64,000 nucleotides of DNA from Chloroflexota bacterium (GTDB lineage: Bacteria; Chloroflexota; Dehalococcoidia; Lucifugimonadales; Lucifugimonadaceae). The position numbers and the translations under genes are program-made. The stretch covers positions 62,001 to 126,000 of the forward strand of contig JAQCHZ010000003.1 in NCBI GenBank assembly GCA_027618835.1. Reading direction: 5' to 3'. How positions within the stretch are numbered: the stretch's first letter is position 1; each line of letters opens with the position of its first letter. The notes under the pieces are model-generated. The model had not been told where the DNA came from and did not search any database. It saw nothing but the letters and a program-made list of their open reading frames with translations. Shown piece by piece: positions 3,160-9,976 of the stretch.

Positions 3160-3957
3160 TTGACGATTAGTGCGATAGGAAAGATCGATTTCAACGCCGA
3201 TATCGGTGAGTCGTTTGCCGGATATGTACTCGGGCTCGACAGCGAAATCGTGAAGTACATCACCTCTGCGAATATTGCGACCGGTTTTCATGCGGGTGAC
3301 CCCGATTGGATGGCGAAAACGGTGAATCTTGCGATTGAGAACGGCGTTGGCATAGGCGCCCATCCGGCATATCCAGATCTCGCCGGGTTTGGTCGTCGCA
3401 ACATGGATCTCACGCCCAGTGAGGTTCAAAACGCCGTTACCTATCAGATAGGTGCACTCGCAGCTTTCACTCCAGATCGAAAGTTGCAACATGTGAAACC
3501 ACACGGAGCGCTGTACAACACCGCGGTACGTGATGAAGCAGTGGCAGGCGCGATAGTGGCCGCAATCAAGGCGTTCGATCCTGAATTAATTCACGTGGTG
3601 TTGGCAGGGTCTAAGTGGGAATCGATCGCTAGAGCACAGGGCGTACGAGTGGCGCGTGAGTGCTACGCAGATCGTGCTGTGACCGCCGACGGAACACTGG
3701 TTCCACGCTCGCAACCGGGCGCTGTCATTCATGACCCCAAACAAGTTGTGGAAAGGTCGCTCAAGCTTGCGACCGAAGGCAAAGTGACCGCGATTGACGG
3801 CACTGAAATCGACTTCTCAGCCGATTCGATATGTTTGCACGGCGACACCGCGGGGGCGGTCGAGTTAGCTGCTGCCGTAAGGGGTGCGCTCGAAACTGAA
3901 GGAGTGGAGATTACGTCGATGAGTAAGCTCATCGCTGGTATTGGTCAAACTCAGTAG
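3160..3957 (+). CDS. pxpA: 5-oxoprolinase subunit A (LamB/YcsF family)
   Basis: A 265-residue LamB/YcsF protein with a TIM-barrel-like fold, one of three subunits of the ATP-dependent bacterial 5-oxoprolinase, which opens 5-oxoproline to glutamate. Family motifs are FNADIGESF near the N-terminus, SANIATGFHAGDP, GIGAHPAYPDLAGFGRR, QHVKPHGALYN and CLHGDT near the C-terminus. The start is a TTG at 3160 because the conserved N-terminal strand begins right after it; no better start exists downstream. Its stop lies one base before the pxpB ATG, so the two are co-transcribed. Family length is about 250-260, so it is complete. Confidence 0.9.
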   Translation: MTISAIGKIDFNADIGESFAGYVLGLDSEIVKYITSANIATGFHAGDPDWMAKTVNLAIENGVGIGAHPAYPDLAGFGRRNMDLTPSEVQNAVTYQIGALAAFTPDRKLQHVKPHGALYNTAVRDEAVAGAIVAAIKAFDPELIHVVLAGSKWESIARAQGVRVARECYADRAVTADGTLVPRSQPGAVIHDPKQVVERSLKLATEGKVTAIDGTEIDFSADSICLHGDTAGAVELAAAVRGALETEGVEITSMSKLIAGIGQTQ

Positions 3958-3958
3958 G

Positions 3959-4657
3959 ATGGCACCGAGAGAAGATTCAGACACCACGTACCCACGGCTC
4001 GTTCCAGCCGGCGATTCGGCCATTGTCATCGAGCTAGGGTCTGAGATCGATCCGAATGTGAACGATCAGGTTTATAGCCTCTTGAAGACGGTCGAAGCAG
4101 CAGACATCGAAGCGGTTCGAGAACTTGTGCCGACCTATCGCTCTCTGTTGGTAAGTTACGACCCATTAGTGTCGAGATTTGCTGATATGAACGAGCGGTT
4201 AGCGGAGTTGGTCGAACGTTCCACGGCTGAGGTAAATCAGGAACCAGAGGAAGCTCGCATCGTCGAATTGCCAGTTGTTTATGGCGGTGATGATGGCCCA
4301 GATCTTGAGTCGCTTGCCGAGCACGTGAACTTATCTGTTCAAGAAGTAGTCGATATTCATTCGGGTATCGACTACCGCGTTTACATGATCGGATTCGCCG
4401 CAGGCTTTCCTTATCTGGGTGGGTTAGATCAAAGAATAGCGATGCCTCGACTAAAAACACCTCGCGTGAACGTTCCTGCCGGATCAGTTGGAATAGCTGA
4501 ATCTCAGACGGGGGTTTATCCGAACGCCAGCCCTGGCGGATGGCAATTGATCGGTAGGACGCTGGCACAGCTATTTGATGTGAGCAGCCCAGCGCCGTCG
4601 TTGATTACTCCCGGTTCTAAAGTGCGTTTCGTACCGGTGAAGTCTCATGACCAGTAA
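3959..4657 (+). CDS. pxpB: 5-oxoprolinase subunit B (KipI family)
   Basis: A 232-residue KipI-family protein. The N-terminal domain has RLVPAGDSAIVIELG at 12-26. The C-terminal cyclophilin-like domain shows YMIGFAAGFPYLGGLD, PRLKTPRVNVPAGSVGIA and YPNASPGGWQLIGRT, hallmark motifs of KipI/PxpB. In 5-oxoprolinase it acts with PxpC and PxpA. A TTG at 3941 would extend it by six residues, overlapping pxpA; the ATG at 3959 is preferred. The 3' end overlaps pxpC by 11 bases, indicating translational coupling. KipI-like domains also form part of the carboxyltransferase domain of urea carboxylase, which matters because biotin-enzyme genes follow. Confidence 0.88.
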   Translation: MAPREDSDTTYPRLVPAGDSAIVIELGSEIDPNVNDQVYSLLKTVEAADIEAVRELVPTYRSLLVSYDPLVSRFADMNERLAELVERSTAEVNQEPEEARIVELPVVYGGDDGPDLESLAEHVNLSVQEVVDIHSGIDYRVYMIGFAAGFPYLGGLDQRIAMPRLKTPRVNVPAGSVGIAESQTGVYPNASPGGWQLIGRTLAQLFDVSSPAPSLITPGSKVRFVPVKSHDQ

Positions 4658-5741
4658 CCTGCAACGAACCATACGAATCGTTCAGCCTGGGCCTATGACG
4701 CTGGTGCAGGATCGAGGTAGATTCGGATTCCAACAGCTTGGAGTGTCGGCATCGGGGGCTGTTGATATCGACGCTCTCGACACGGGGAATCTGCTCGTTG
4801 GAAACAACCCGAATGCTGCCTGCCTTGAAGTGATGCTAGGCGGACTGGAGCTTGAGTTTTCAGGTTCCTCGGTTATTTCAGTCACTGGCGCCGAATCTGA
4901 TGTAACCATCGACGGTGTGCCGATTTCACTGGGCATTTCGTACTTTTTGCATTCAGATGCCCGGCTTGAACTTGGTATAGCAACTGGCGGTCTGCGAACG
5001 TACATCGCAGTTGCGGGTGGCATCGATGTTGCGCAAACCCTAGGCTCACGATCAACCCACATTGCCTCAAAAATTGGCGGGGTCGATGGACGTTCGTTGG
5101 TCGTGGGAGATGTGTTGAACATTGGTGAATCAGGCCGCGCTGCCGCCTCAGGATTACAGCTCGCAGGTGAGTCAACGAGTTCATCCGATGGAAATATTAA
5201 CGTTCGTATCGTGCTCGGTCCGCAGGATGATGAATTCTCGGACGCCGGCATTGCATCGCTCTTGAACTCCATCTACGTTGTTTCAGACCAATCTAATCGT
5301 CAGGGTCTGCGACTCGATGGGCCGGTGATCGAATCGAAGTCCGGTCGTTACGACATTGTTTCCGACGCGGTAGTAAACGGTTCGATCCAAGTACCAGGCG
5401 ATGGAAAACCCATCATCCTTCTTGCTGATCGCCAGACGACCGGTGGTTACGCCAAGATCGCCACAGTTGCGACCGTGGATTTACCTCAGCTTGGGCAAGC
5501 GGCTCCAGGTACTAGCATAACTTTTACCGCGATTACGGTCGAAGAATCTCAAGAGTTACTTGCTGCGAGAAGTGAACGATACACACCAAAAAATCTTGCC
5601 AGTATTGTCGACCAAATATCGCTTAAGGTGGACGGTGAAGACGTTACGGTAGGCGTGGCCGAGAACGGTGCGAGTGCATTAGCTGAGGTTGATGGCAACA
5701 CGTACCCGATTTCGGTCGATGAATATACCCCCGCTGAGTAG
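4647..5741 (+). CDS. pxpC: 5-oxoprolinase subunit C (KipA family) with unusual C-terminal tail
   Basis: A 364-residue KipA/PxpC protein. Visible motifs are VQPGPMTLVQDRGRFGFQ near the start, GVSASGAVDIDALDTGNLLV, TGGLRTYIAVAGGIDV, SNRQGLRLDG and LADRQTTGGYAKIATV. The family usually ends around 310-330 residues. Here about 40 further residues follow, including SLKVDGEDVTVGVAENG and VDGNTYPISVDEY. This tail resembles the N-terminal segment of the biotin carrier protein encoded two genes downstream (KITIAGQTYDVEVGD and VDGTTYVVEVPD). It may be a biotin-carrier association module. It is coupled to pxpB by overlap. The catalytic partner role is inferred from family; the tail's function is inference. 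Confidence 0.88.
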   Translation: MTSNLQRTIRIVQPGPMTLVQDRGRFGFQQLGVSASGAVDIDALDTGNLLVGNNPNAACLEVMLGGLELEFSGSSVISVTGAESDVTIDGVPISLGISYFLHSDARLELGIATGGLRTYIAVAGGIDVAQTLGSRSTHIASKIGGVDGRSLVVGDVLNIGESGRAAASGLQLAGESTSSSDGNINVRIVLGPQDDEFSDAGIASLLNSIYVVSDQSNRQGLRLDGPVIESKSGRYDIVSDAVVNGSIQVPGDGKPIILLADRQTTGGYAKIATVATVDLPQLGQAAPGTSITFTAITVEESQELLAARSERYTPKNLASIVDQISLKVDGEDVTVGVAENGASALAEVDGNTYPISVDEYTPAE

Positions 5742-5801
5742 GGAGTCTTTGTTAGAATCAGCCATCGTATTTTTCGATGATGACCGTATTCGCACCAGTT
5801 T

Positions 5802-6209
5802 GTGAGCGGTTTAGGGAGCATTAACACGTTCGATCAAGATCTGCTAAACGACGGGTTGACGCTGAGTCTTATTGGCATGGGCATTGTGTTTGCCGTGCTT
5901 GCGATTCTCGCACTGTCGATTAAAGGCATCAGTCTGCTCGATAGACAGCCGACCCCAAAGGCTACAGTTACTGCAGCTGAATCGGCGGTTCCAACAACTG
6001 TGACTGTTCCTGCTTCGGCCTCTGACGGCAAAATCACAGGTCAGCAAGTTGCAGCTATCGCTGTAGCACTCGCTTTATCTGAGCCAAAAAAATATTCGAT
6101 AGGTCCGGCTATATCCAGAGCTGGCAGCACTGCTGGATCATGGTTGCAAAGCGGAAGAATGCGGGTACTTGGATCCGGTTCATCCGGCGCTCGGGAGAGG
6201 CGCAATTAG
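5802..6209 (+). CDS. Sodium-pump decarboxylase gamma-subunit-like membrane protein
   Basis: A 135-residue protein with one membrane segment near residues 15-42 (LTLSLIGMGIVFAVLAILAL), then a charged turn, an Ala/Thr/Val/Pro-rich stretch and a basic C-terminus. This layout matches OadG/MmdD-type subunits, which anchor the peripheral carboxyltransferase to the membrane beta subunit of sodium-translocating decarboxylases. A GTG at 5802 is the likely start. Its TAG stop overlaps the GTG start of the biotin carrier by one base. Sequence conservation in this family is low, so the call leans on topology and neighbours. Confidence 0.7.
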   Translation: MSGLGSINTFDQDLLNDGLTLSLIGMGIVFAVLAILALSIKGISLLDRQPTPKATVTAAESAVPTTVTVPASASDGKITGQQVAAIAVALALSEPKKYSIGPAISRAGSTAGSWLQSGRMRVLGSGSSGARERRN

Positions 6210-6658
6210 TGGCTACTAAGAATTACAAAATTACGATTGCAGGCCAGACGTACGACGTCGAGGTTGGCGACATTTCAACGTCTCCAGTGGAAGTATCGGT
6301 CGACGGTACTACCTATGTGGTCGAAGTTCCCGATTCGGCAACGCCGATTGCTCCCGCCACCCCTTCTATCAGTGCGCCAAAAACGGTAACTCCCGCTCCG
6401 CAAGCTATCTCTCGACCGGCTGTTCCCACATCTGGTGGAGACGGAGTTGTTCGTTCGCCGATGCCCGGCAAGATCATCAGCGTAAGCGTCGCTGTTGGAG
6501 ATGCTGTTACTAAGGGTCAGCCAATCATGATCCTTGAATCTATGAAAATGGAAAACACGATTGCTTCACCAATAGACGGTACCGTTTCGGCTGTATTGGT
6601 CGCTGCGGGTGACGCAGTTCAGCACGGTCAGACACTGGCCGAGATCGCACAGGCTTAG
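6209..6658 (+). CDS. Biotin carrier subunit of a decarboxylase/carboxylase
   Basis: A 149-residue biotinyl-lipoyl protein. Residues 1-45 form an association segment (KITIAGQTYDVEVGD). Residues 48-75 are a Pro/Ala-rich hinge. The C-terminal biotinyl domain carries the attachment motif ILESMKMENTI, where the lysine between two methionines is biotinylated. The frame is open upstream, but the start is set at the GTG at 6209: GGGAGAGG sits at 6193-6200 and the protein then begins MATKNYKITI as in MmdC/GcdC-type carriers. It overlaps the preceding stop (TAGTG). The carrier shuttles carboxyl groups between a carboxyltransferase and the membrane beta subunit; no carboxyltransferase of the usual AccD/OadA type is encoded nearby. 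Confidence 0.88.
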   Translation: MATKNYKITIAGQTYDVEVGDISTSPVEVSVDGTTYVVEVPDSATPIAPATPSISAPKTVTPAPQAISRPAVPTSGGDGVVRSPMPGKIISVSVAVGDAVTKGQPIMILESMKMENTIASPIDGTVSAVLVAAGDAVQHGQTLAEIAQA

Positions 6659-6663
6659 TCTCT

Positions 6664-7860
6664 ATGTCGACGGAGTTCGCTGCACTCTGGGAAGGCTTCA
6701 CGGCGATAGGCGAAGAACCTCGCATGATCATCATGTGGGCGATCGCAGGTGCGCTGCTGTACGTTGGTATCGCCAAGAAAAAAGAACCTTTATTGCTGGT
6801 TCCGATTTCGATGGGAATTTTGTTCGCTAATCTTCCGCTTGGCGAATTCATTCGCGAAGGCGGCAACGGCGAACCTGCAGGGCTTCTCAAAACGTTCCAG
6901 AGCGTTGGTATGGAAACCGATATCTTCCCGTTGTTGATCTTCCTTGGTGTAGGTGCTGCTACTGACTTCAGCCCGATGCTATCGAATCCGAAAACGCTGT
7001 TGCTTGGGGCAGGTGCTCAGGCGGGTGTTTTCGTAGCGCTTCTAGGAGCATTGCTACTAGGAATGACTGATTACTTCGAGTTCGGGCTTCTAGAAGCGTC
7101 ATCGATCGGAATCATCGGTGGTGCTGATGGTCCGACAACTATTTTTATCGCCACTCGAATGCGTGAACTAGGTGAATCGCTGCCGAACGTTGATGTACGA
7201 GATATAGTCGGGGCCACGGCGGTTGCAGCTTATTCGTACATGGCTCTAGTTCCGATAATTCAGCCGCCAATTATCAAGCTGCTTACCACTAAGAAAGAAC
7301 GCCTAATTCGAATGGAATACTCGGCAACGCCGGTTTCCAAGCGAACTCAGGTTTTGTTCCCCGTTCTGACAACGATCATGATCAGTGTTTTGGTGCCTTC
7401 GGCTTCGCCGCTAATCGGAATGCTCATGCTCGGTAACCTCATCAAGGTTTCGGGCGTGGTGCCTCGACTCGCCGACGTTACTGAAAATTCGTTGATGAAC
7501 GTGGTGATCATTCTGCTGGGACTAGCGGTGGGATCGACAATGCCCGCACACATCTTCTTACAGCCGGAAACGATCGGTATATTCCTACTTGGTCTGTTCG
7601 CATTCATTACTGCAACCGTCGCCGGAATTCTGCTTGCCAAGTTGATGAACCTTGTAAGCAAGGATCAGATTAATCCGATGATTGGTGCAGCCGGAGTTTC
7701 GGCGGTTCCGATGGCGGCGAGAGTTGTGCAAGATATGGGTCAAAAAGAAGACCCAGAGAACTTCTTGTTGATGCACGCAATGGGTCCTAACGTTGCCGGC
7801 GTAATCGGAACGGCCACCGTCGCCGGTGTTCTGCTCGCTGTTGTTGAGACGATGCTTTAG
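6664..7860 (+). CDS. Sodium-translocating decarboxylase beta subunit
   Basis: A 398-residue integral membrane protein of the OadB/GcdB/MmdB family. It decarboxylates carboxybiotin and couples this to export of sodium ions. Diagnostic motifs are FPLLIFLGVGAATDF, GIIGGADGPTTIFIATRM with the essential aspartate, GNLIKVSGVVPRL and NPMIGAAGVSAVPMAARVVQ near the C-terminus. About ten membrane spans are apparent. Family length is 375-430, so it is full length. It starts six bases after the biotin-carrier stop. The substrate cannot be told from this subunit; oxaloacetate, methylmalonyl-CoA and glutaconyl-CoA pumps share it. Confidence 0.92.
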   Translation: MSTEFAALWEGFTAIGEEPRMIIMWAIAGALLYVGIAKKKEPLLLVPISMGILFANLPLGEFIREGGNGEPAGLLKTFQSVGMETDIFPLLIFLGVGAATDFSPMLSNPKTLLLGAGAQAGVFVALLGALLLGMTDYFEFGLLEASSIGIIGGADGPTTIFIATRMRELGESLPNVDVRDIVGATAVAAYSYMALVPIIQPPIIKLLTTKKERLIRMEYSATPVSKRTQVLFPVLTTIMISVLVPSASPLIGMLMLGNLIKVSGVVPRLADVTENSLMNVVIILLGLAVGSTMPAHIFLQPETIGIFLLGLFAFITATVAGILLAKLMNLVSKDQINPMIGAAGVSAVPMAARVVQDMGQKEDPENFLLMHAMGPNVAGVIGTATVAGVLLAVVETML

Positions 7861-8035
7861 GCGTTTGCTTTGACGATGATGCGAACGTAGCTTCATGCTG
7901 AATTTCAGCTCGTAACGCTGCTTCTTCTGTTGCGTTCCCGCGATAGTGATGCGAATATCCGCGTCATATATGAACAACACCCGTCTGTTCAGGTGTTCAA
8001 GTTTGCCGTCATCTACTGTTTGGAGATTCCGAAAC

Positions 8036-8938
8036 ATGCCAGATCGCTCAATGAAGGGTGTATACCCAATCCTCTCTGCCCCGATTAACGAAAAGGGTCA
8101 GCTAGTGATGGACGACCTCGAAAATCAGGTCGAATGGATGATTGGCAAAGGCGTTCACGGTCTTGGAATTGCGGTTGCCACTGAGATCTACAAGTTCACT
8201 GAAGCAGAGCGTGACCTCATTCTCAGTACGGTAGTTCGAGTAGCGAACGGTCGAGTCAAGGTTGTGATGAATACTGGTGGCGAGGGCACAGACGTAGCCA
8301 TCGCATACTCAAAACGTGCGGAAGAACTAGGTGCCGATGCACTGATGATTCGGCCTACTTCGTTCATTCCTGTCGCAGCTTCGGAAAATATCGAATACTT
8401 CGGCAAAATCGCTGAATCGGTTTCGCTTCCTATCTTCCTACAGGATCAGAACACTGCTCCAGTACCGCCAGCGATGGCAGTGGCATGTGCCAAGCGCCAC
8501 GAGAATCTTTGCTACATCAAAGTCGAAACTCCTCCGACGATCCCAAGAATGGGTGAGACGCAAAAACTGGCCGAGGGAACTGGTCTGGTTCTGTTCGGTG
8601 GTGCAGGGGGGGCGTTCGCAGTTGAAGAGTTCAAACGAGGCTCGGTCGGAACCATGCCAGGCTCGACCTTGCCCGATATGTTCGTTCGCGTTTGGGATGC
8701 TTTCCAAGCTGGCGATGAAGACACAGCGAACGCCGAAATGCGACGACACGCTGCATTGTTTGGAATGCTGGCTCAGGGCCAAGGGTTCGCCAACTGGATT
8801 TACAAGCACATCATGGTTCGACGTGGAGTATTTTCACCGGGATCTGATTTCGCTCGCCACCCAGGGCTGAAACCTGACACCGAGCATTTCAAGGAAATCG
8901 ATAGCCTGCTCGAAAGCCACGATCTCATCGGTAAATAA
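8036..8938 (+). CDS. DHDPS/N-acetylneuraminate-lyase family enzyme (paralog 1)
   Basis: A 300-residue class I aldolase/dehydratase barrel. The Schiff-base lysine is in CYIKVETPP. The usual YN active-site motif is replaced by FLQDQN, and the GTTGE loop by AVATEIYKF, so it is neither classical DapA nor NanA. It begins MPDRSMKGVYPIL, matching the start MPDRSFSGVFPIL of its paralog at 62403-63296; this sets the start at 8036 although the frame is open from 7946. The C-terminal part (MLAQGQGFANWIYKHIMVRRGVF) also parallels the paralog. A sugar-acid or hydroxy-oxo-acid lyase is plausible; the substrate is unknown. Confidence 0.82.
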   Translation: MPDRSMKGVYPILSAPINEKGQLVMDDLENQVEWMIGKGVHGLGIAVATEIYKFTEAERDLILSTVVRVANGRVKVVMNTGGEGTDVAIAYSKRAEELGADALMIRPTSFIPVAASENIEYFGKIAESVSLPIFLQDQNTAPVPPAMAVACAKRHENLCYIKVETPPTIPRMGETQKLAEGTGLVLFGGAGGAFAVEEFKRGSVGTMPGSTLPDMFVRVWDAFQAGDEDTANAEMRRHAALFGMLAQGQGFANWIYKHIMVRRGVFSPGSDFARHPGLKPDTEHFKEIDSLLESHDLIGK

Positions 8939-9127: not shown

Positions 9128-9976
9128 ATGGGCGACGGGCTGACGACTCTTGCGCTGGCTGGAGCTGATCTATCTGGAGTCGAACTGACCGGACTGGCGA
9201 TCATGTCGTTGATCGTTGGTGTAGTTGGCGGGATCGTCGGAATCGCCCTCGGGGTCATTCGACTACCAGTCATGACGGCCATCGGGGTCGATCCGTTCAT
9301 TGCTGCAAGCACCAATCTTTTCGTTAGCGTGCTCGGCTCGTTTGCGGGCTCATGGCCTGCGATTCTTCAACGCCGAATCGTTTTCCGAATTGTGCTCGTC
9401 ATCGGAATTCCGGCAATTGCTGGGTCGTTCATTGGAGGACTGTACGCCGACCTCGTTTCACGAACAGTTCTGCTGACCATCGTTGCGTTGTTGCTCGTTT
9501 GGTCAGCCGCGATGATGATTCTTCGCGCCACATCTGAACTACGAGGAAAAGCTGTATCGCACAAGAAATCTAACGATGATCCGAGTGTGGGCAGAGGCGA
9601 TCTCAACCGAAAGACAATCGCTCGTGAGAGCGTTCTCGGTTTCGGAATAGGGCTCATCGGGGGTGCCGTTGGCTTGGCACTTGGTGTACTTCGCATGCCG
9701 GGGTTGATCCACGTGCTTAAGATGAGACCGTCGCTCGCAGCAGGTACGAACCTAGCATTGACGATACTCGTTGGGTCATCAGGGTTCACCGGGCACCTTA
9801 TTCGAGGGCGAGTCGACTGGCTTCTCGTTTCGGTAATCGGAATACCAGCGATGATCGGTATGTTTGCGGGCTCTCGAATGAGCGGAAATGTCGACCCGAC
9901 GAAGCTCCGATTGGTAGTCGGTCTCGTGCTGCTCGCGGTTTCTCCGTTGGTCTTCTACGACGCGTTCTGGGGCTAG
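9128..9976 (+). CDS. TauE/SafE-family anion exporter
   Basis: A 282-residue membrane protein built from two related halves of about four spans each. The repeats are VGIALGVIRLPVMTAIGVDP with ASTNLFVSVLGSFAG in the first half and VGLALGVLRMPGLIHV with AAGTNLALTILVGSSG in the second, the internal duplication of the TauE/SafE (DUF81) family. Members export sulfite or organosulfonates. A charged cytoplasmic loop lies near 135-165. It stands alone between a lyase gene and prpB, so the substrate is not indicated by context. Confidence 0.85.
   Translation: MGDGLTTLALAGADLSGVELTGLAIMSLIVGVVGGIVGIALGVIRLPVMTAIGVDPFIAASTNLFVSVLGSFAGSWPAILQRRIVFRIVLVIGIPAIAGSFIGGLYADLVSRTVLLTIVALLLVWSAAMMILRATSELRGKAVSHKKSNDDPSVGRGDLNRKTIARESVLGFGIGLIGGAVGLALGVLRMPGLIHVLKMRPSLAAGTNLALTILVGSSGFTGHLIRGRVDWLLVSVIGIPAMIGMFAGSRMSGNVDPTKLRLVVGLVLLAVSPLVFYDAFWG

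Follow-up and report, generated by a model that had tools for sequence, protein, structure and literature searches.

A pxpABC operon joined to an OadB-type sodium pump and its biotin carrier in a Chloroflexota genome: a possible sodium-driven 5-oxoprolinase

Sodium-translocating decarboxylases of oxaloacetate, methylmalonyl-CoA and glutaconyl-CoA are built from an OadB-type membrane subunit, an OadG-like anchor, a biotin carrier in which a linker joins an anchor region to a biotinyl domain, and an alpha subunit encoded by an OadA or MmdA/GcdA gene. The OadB pumps characterised so far export sodium upon decarboxylation, as described in the accessible parts of two papers (PMC8473912, PMC7145394), the first of which reports up to 2 Na+ per decarboxylation. 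The PxpABC 5-oxoprolinase of B. subtilis, E. coli and C. glutamicum faces an uphill reaction, the equilibrium constant of 5-oxoproline hydrolysis being about 0.035 according to the available portion of the source (PMC13274462), so that hydrolysis must be coupled to something. Urea carboxylase, in turn, contains carboxyltransferase domains of the CT_A_B and CT_C_D families, to which PxpC and PxpB also belong, together with a biotin carboxylase (BC) domain. The six-gene operon described here, pxpA-pxpB-pxpC-oadG-bccp-oadB, combines features of all three and lies in a 64,000-nucleotide stretch, hereafter the window, of a Chloroflexota genome (class Dehalococcoidia, order Lucifugimonadales, family Lucifugimonadaceae; assembly GCA_027618835.1, contig JAQCHZ010000003.1, positions 62,001 to 126,000).

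With the sodium-translocating decarboxylases the operon has in common the OadB-type membrane subunit, the small OadG-like anchor and a carrier of the same three-part build, but pxpABC occupies the place of the alpha subunit gene and the likely direction of the reaction is carboxylation. With the 5-oxoprolinases it shares all three Pxp subunits and, probably, 5-oxoproline as the substrate, while differing from them in the added carrier and sodium pump and in a PxpC that carries an extra tail and falls below the equivalog cut-off. Compared with urea carboxylase (structure 3va7; E 1e-31 for PxpC, a weak E 2e-4 for PxpB), the CT_A_B and CT_C_D families and a biotin carrier are all present, but as separate subunits, with OadB and no BC domain, and with PxpA instead of allophanate hydrolase. 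An earlier sequence-only reading of the window had suggested that PxpB-PxpC may be the carboxyltransferase of a new type of sodium-translocating decarboxylase, and had named the gene order in relatives, an alpha subunit elsewhere in the genome and the grouping of PxpB and PxpC with 5-oxoprolinases as the points on which this would turn. The analysis reported here leads us to favour, tentatively and at a little under even confidence, a 5-oxoprolinase in which PxpABC is driven by a reversed OadB, the sodium gradient replacing ATP and BC. Such a system would be made of known parts with an unusual energetic logic.

Gene content of the operon and its genome

Open reading frame (ORF) calls were compared with the coordinates of the sequence-only reading, and Pfam and NCBIfam profile scores were read against the cut-off of each model. 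Both agree with the six-gene run on one strand that had been described: the genes are intact, all lie on the plus strand with overlaps or short gaps between them, and all six proteins score above the Pfam cut-offs.

3160..3957, plus strand: pxpA (LamB/YcsF family), proposed hydrolase that would open the carboxylated ring; PF03746 LamB_YcsF 325 bits, NCBIfam PxpA subfamily NF003814 361 bits (cut-off 226)
3941..4657, plus strand: pxpB, carboxyltransferase subdomains C and D; PF02682 CT_C_D 256 bits, TIGR00370 217 bits (cut-off 146)
4647..5741, plus strand: pxpC, carboxyltransferase subdomains A and B, extended at the C terminus; PF02626 CT_A_B 291 bits, TIGR00724 294 bits (above cut-off)
5610..5738, plus strand: C-terminal tail of PxpC (residues 322-364), with profile homology to the carrier's N-terminal anchor region
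5802..6209, plus strand: oadG-like membrane anchor (gamma/delta subunit type); PF04277 OAD_gamma 52 bits, TIGR01195 46 bits (above cut-off)
6209..6658, plus strand: bccp, pump-type biotin carrier with N-terminal anchor region, linker and biotinyl domain; PF00364 Biotin_lipoyl 74 bits
6664..7860, plus strand: oadB, sodium-coupled carboxybiotin decarboxylase; PF03977 OAD_beta 470 bits, TIGR01109 459 bits (cut-off 191)

For pxpB, the only copy in the genome, an in-frame ATG at 3959 is as likely a start as 3941, and for bccp, whose ORF spans 6140-6658, the GTG at 6209 is the likelier start. The carrier holds the biotin motif ESMKMEN, with the lysine codon at 6545-6547, and OadB can be aligned over 326 residues to the OadB of the solved structure 6iva, including GGADGPT, SYMALVP and AGVSAVPMAARV. 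Against the 5-oxoprolinase models, PxpB is above the PxpB equivalog TIGR00370 and PxpA above the PxpA subfamily model, whereas PxpC reaches only 245 bits in the NCBI equivalog PxpC_5OPro, the cut-off of which is 500. In a PxpC tree with weak deep branches and a long E. coli row, the window protein did not group with E. coli PxpC.

No OadA-, MmdA- or AccD-type gene lies beside the operon, and genome-wide searches with PF01039 and PF02436 placed none elsewhere in the window, the remaining 50 kb of which were not scanned separately. An OadA elsewhere in the genome was rejected as the alpha subunit, since a genome-wide profile search (PYC_OADA) did not find one in this assembly, which is 88.9% complete, a figure that bounds every absence given for it. 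The genome does encode an MmdA/PccB-like protein on contig C34, for which mmdA is the best model (836 bits; cut-off 998.8, not reached), and contig C36 carries an AccD-AccA fusion. These qualify the absence noted in the earlier reading, which concerned the window. Full-length MmdA/PccB-like matches were obtained in 56 of 60 relatives, and the 13 relatives that have no OadB are all among them; the protein thus does not follow OadB in its distribution, nor was a standard alpha subunit found that does.

Neither of the two BC domains, PF02785 and PF00289, was found in the window genome. A missed BC was rejected as an explanation, the two domains agreeing on the absence and the same 18 genomes being above cut-off for both. 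Four biotin/lipoyl domains (PF00364) were detected: that of the operon biotin carboxyl carrier protein (BCCP) and three in ORFs of 412-463 amino acids, taken by their length alone as lipoyl acyltransferases. The operon BCCP is accordingly the only stand-alone biotin carrier found in this genome.

Linkage of the pxp genes with oadB and biotin carboxylase

Profile searches in 60 relatives found OadB in 47 and PxpB in 46 of them. The two occur together in 44 genomes, PxpB alone in two (G020, G025), OadB alone in three (G039, G042, G055) and neither in 11. By coordinates, the pair lies within a few kb in 40 of the 44 genomes with both, the exceptions being G019, G041 and G046, where the genes are far apart, and G015, where they sit at the ends of two different contigs. 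In the family loci examined the usual order is pxpABC-(oadG)-bccp-oadB, while the other families of the order show a divergent arrangement with pxpABC facing away from (oadG)-oadB-bccp. The gene order is therefore conserved in the family, as the sequence-only reading would have it, and pxpABC stays next to oadB-bccp, rearranged, beyond it. Because the linkage survives rearrangement and reappears in Firmicutes (see below), coincidental neighbourhood was rejected as a full account; the linkage is more than chance.

Biotin carboxylase makes carboxybiotin, and its occurrence was compared with that of OadB. BC was found in 7 of the 47 OadB-positive relatives (G027, G029, G036, G037, G039, G041, G050) versus 11 of the 13 OadB-negative ones; the two genomes with neither, G003 and G030, have a completeness of 83% and 69%. 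Across the 399 genomes sampled from the phylum, OadB was present in 34 of 41 BC-negative versus 56 of 358 BC-positive genomes, 20 of the 41 being recorded as lacking BC and the others deduced from their absence in the BC-positive list. Fisher tests, which ignore kinship, gave p values of 5.5e-6 for the relatives and 2.4e-18 for the phylum, and on a PccB tree of 56 genomes OadB and BC changed seven times each. G020 and G025 keep pxpABC-bccp without OadB, and both have BC. In G025 the BC gene lies in a cluster that the window genome carries without it, which we take to read folP-pccB-icd-mdh-BC...sdh in G025 and folP-pccB-mdh...sdh, with no BC or icd there, in the window genome. This synteny fits an exchange of OadB and BC.

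The BC-negative Chloroflexota with OadB are spread over several classes and orders of the sample. The presence of OadB in these genomes may reflect a wider loss of the ATP-dependent enzyme. Among 14 control genomes only Thermotoga maritima was without BC, and it has OadB. The acetyl-CoA-carboxylase type of BC is reported to be lacking in Thermotogales, in the part of the source available (PMC3199775).

The association of pxp genes with biotin genes extends to other organisms. Among PxpC loci from named genomes, of which the best 80 of 583 confirmed stretches were considered, a BCCP was found near PxpC in 28, together with BC in 20, with OadB in six, with neither in two and with both in none. 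Of the six OadB cases four come from Chloroflexota, two of these repeating relatives already counted. The remaining pair, Clostridium mobile (L137) and Natroniella acetigena (L138), are Firmicutes with OadB and a pump-type BCCP beside pxpABC and with BC elsewhere in the genome. A full ATP version is seen on a Lactiplantibacillus plasmid (L218), with the order pxpB-pxpC-BCCP-BC-hydrolyase-pxpA-transporter; like the window operon, such Firmicutes sets cluster PxpABC with a biotin carrier, but they have the ATP-dependent BC for OadB and a carrier with another type of N-terminus. Five other plasmid pxp loci (L128, L129, L130, L132, L219) list no biotin genes nearby in plasmid annotations that are incomplete. 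In a Methylomirabilota locus (L135:6086-8269) PxpB, PxpC and BCCP are fused into one protein, and at a further locus, L134, pxpABC-bccp stands with no OadB or BC close by, in a genome that shows no BC. The PDB entry 9yx5 contains, by its listing, PxpC and PxpB homologues together with AccA3, a BC-BCCP subunit; a literature search found no paper on this complex.

The alternation of OadB and BC beside the same BCCP-pxp genes makes it most likely that the two do the same job, the making of carboxybiotin. Because OadB occupies the position that BC has in other loci, and is frequent in genomes with no BC, it most likely runs in reverse. Together with the PxpB-PxpC-BCCP fusion, 9yx5 and the tail of PxpC described below, the same alternation suggests that PxpBC can act as a biotin carboxyltransferase with such a carrier.

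The PxpC tail, the proposed reaction and its alternatives

The alignment of PxpC proteins in the PDB to the window PxpC stops at residue 307. When 24 PxpC tails of the order were compared by hhalign with the first 41 residues of 23 carriers, a probability of 95.2 was obtained (E 2.7e-8, 38 columns), while the control comparison of the tails with the biotinyl part gave a probability of 0.6. None of 100 column shuffles reached the tail-carrier score (best 14.9 versus 35). At a limit of 0 bits, set after the tail scores were known and before the OadB search, the tail was found in 28 of 111 PxpC proteins: 12 of 25 OadB-linked, 13 of 57 unlinked, 2 of 6 with BCCP alone, 1 of 3 whose OadB is distant and none of the 20 BC-linked ones. 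The OadB-linked set of 25 includes two duplicate rows (L151 of L064, L195 of L081). The background at the same limit, for the last 75 residues, was 6 of 346 unrelated ORFs, 2 of 75 PxpA and 7 of 87 PxpB. A prediction fixed in advance, that genomes with a tailed PxpC and no biotin gene close to it encode OadB, was borne out in 13 of 13 cases compared with 21 of 37 tail-less ones (Fisher p 0.0026, kinship ignored), two of the 21 being fragments only. In an AF2 model of PxpC the tail appears as four strands with a pLDDT below 50 and is not resolved. In glutaconyl-CoA decarboxylase the N-terminal region of the carrier is described as an anchor between GcdA and GcdB, in the text available of that source (PMC7145394). 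Judged by profile, the PxpC tail is homologous to the carrier N-terminus, and the two would share a docking-type domain.

Similar ends were seen in other proteins. OadA-like proteins of about 500 amino acids occur, one or two each, in eight family genomes, the window genome not being one of them, and the two inspected by eye, from G013 and G024, end in a similar anchor motif and have no biotinyl domain. At L215:6595-8115 and L216:6093-7604 lie OadA-like proteins of about 505 amino acids with this anchor-like end and no biotinyl domain, which perhaps use the shared carrier in trans. G043, a relative without OadB and without PxpB, has 13 matches to the PYC_OADA domain in ORFs of about 490-555 amino acids.

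In the reaction that we propose, PxpB-PxpC would be a biotin carboxyltransferase of the urea carboxylase type, docked on a membrane complex of OadG, BCCP and OadB. OadB would work in the carboxylating direction, with sodium influx leading to carboxybiotin on the carrier, and PxpBC would transfer the carboxyl group to the lactam, most likely to the ring nitrogen of 5-oxoproline, by analogy with the action of urea carboxylase on urea. PxpA would then open the activated ring, and the resulting carbamate would lose CO2 to give glutamate. Dimroth and Hilpert reportedly reversed oxaloacetate and methylmalonyl-CoA decarboxylase in vitro in 1984, to judge by a title cited in PMC7274780. In genomes without BC, this carrier and pump might in addition serve to charge AccD-AccA and the MmdA-like protein. 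A broader version, which we regard as possible though distinctly less probable than the sodium-driven 5-oxoprolinase itself, is that many Chloroflexota have lost the ATP-dependent BC and use a reversed OadB instead, so that one sodium-charged carrier would feed several carboxyltransferases, some of them docked via the shared anchor domain, with PxpBC serving lactam opening, AccD-AccA malonyl-CoA and the MmdA-like protein methylmalonyl-CoA.

Several observations weigh against this proposal. No biotin gene is nearby in 52 of the 80 PxpC loci, nor in the E. coli pxp locus examined, and BC and OadB occur together in 7 of the 60 relatives, in 56 of the 399 genomes from the phylum and in the two Firmicutes C. 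mobile and N. acetigena. In the phylum beyond this order, pxp genes were seen near none of 39 OadB loci (L088-L127 except L124), some of which lie on short contigs, nor near L124, which is inside the order. Single tails are weak matches, the window's own tail scoring 4.4 bits, and 4 of the 25 OadB-linked PxpC proteins have no match. When kinship is taken into account, three independent contrasts remain on well-supported branches; on average BC changes in the opposite direction in 1.2 of these and in the same direction in 0.1. A sign test does not reach significance and, with so few contrasts, is underpowered. Finally, the published assumption, in the portion of the paper available, is that PxpBC phosphorylates 5-oxoproline (PMC13274462). 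Among the papers listed in a survey of open-licence literature, none connected a sodium pump or carboxybiotin with PxpBC or with oxoprolinase.

The best-surviving alternative, which we nevertheless consider unlikely, is that PxpABC is an ordinary ATP-dependent 5-oxoprolinase and that OadG-BCCP-OadB belongs to a methylmalonyl-CoA decarboxylase, or works in the reverse direction, with the MmdA-like protein of contig C34 as its alpha subunit, the two systems being only neighbours or co-regulated. This conventional assignment keeps standing because the MmdA-like protein exists in the genome; an MmdA-like gene is moreover found with bccp-oadB in 18 of the 39 phylum loci outside the order, prpBCD for propionyl-CoA lies downstream of the operon and PxpB passes its equivalog model. 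It does not sit well with a linkage that survives rearrangement and returns in Firmicutes, nor with the PxpB-PxpC-BCCP fusion, 9yx5 and the BC-BCCP-pxp clusters, which tie PxpBC to biotin, and the anchor-like tail is on PxpC and not, by eye, on the MmdA-like protein.

Rather more doubtful is a decarboxylase that exports sodium, in which biotin would receive CO2 that PxpBC removes from a substrate, with OadB pumping sodium out. This is what the characterised OadB pumps do, again in the accessible parts of PMC8473912 and PMC7145394, and pxpABC does take the place that the alpha subunit gene has in other operons. However, BC replaces OadB beside the same genes in 20 of the 80 PxpC loci and on the Lactiplantibacillus plasmid, which fits carboxylation; G020 and G025 retain pxpABC-bccp and have BC but no OadB, and the neighbourhood suggests no carboxylated substrate. 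Of the earlier proposal we therefore retain PxpBC as the carboxyltransferase of the carrier and OadB pump, but not the decarboxylase direction.

Least probable of the three is a transcarboxylation hub, in which an MmdA-like or OadA-like protein would load the single BCCP from methylmalonyl-CoA or oxaloacetate, AccD-AccA or PxpBC would unload it and OadB would only vent surplus carboxybiotin: one stand-alone BCCP, several carboxyltransferases, no BC found and the anchor-like ends of the G024 and G013 proteins agree with it, but by itself it does not account for the frequency of OadB in genomes lacking BC, or for OadB next to pxp genes in Firmicutes with a BC of their own.

If the sodium-driven 5-oxoprolinase is real, a cellular carboxylation would draw its energy from an ion gradient instead of ATP, and PxpBC, the chemistry of which is only assumed in the available parts of the papers concerned, would gain a defined role as a biotin carboxyltransferase. 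A route to malonyl-CoA would also be suggested for genomes that have AccD-AccA and no detected BC. As the same genes are present in the cultured N. acetigena and C. mobile, the idea is directly testable.

Genes flanking the operon

The following features surround the operon:

1778-2806: IS110-family transposase, directly upstream of pxpA (PF01548, PF02371)
7946..8938, plus strand: DHDPS-family enzyme; PF00701 72 bits; likelier start ATG at 8036
9128..9976, plus strand: TauE/SafE-family permease; PF01925 134 bits
10032-13503, downstream of the operon: prpB, prpC and prpD (methylisocitrate lyase, methylcitrate synthase and methylcitrate dehydratase; NCBIfam)

The DHDPS-family gene adjoins oadB in most family loci, and the TauE/SafE-family gene, a possible substrate or product transporter, is conserved downstream within the family; in G025, which is without oadB, both come directly after bccp. 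The prpBCD genes, which point to a possible link to propionyl-CoA, are also downstream of the operon in several relatives (L079, L084, L061, L057). Since the IS110-family transposase lies directly upstream of pxpA, the promoter region of the operon may have been rearranged.

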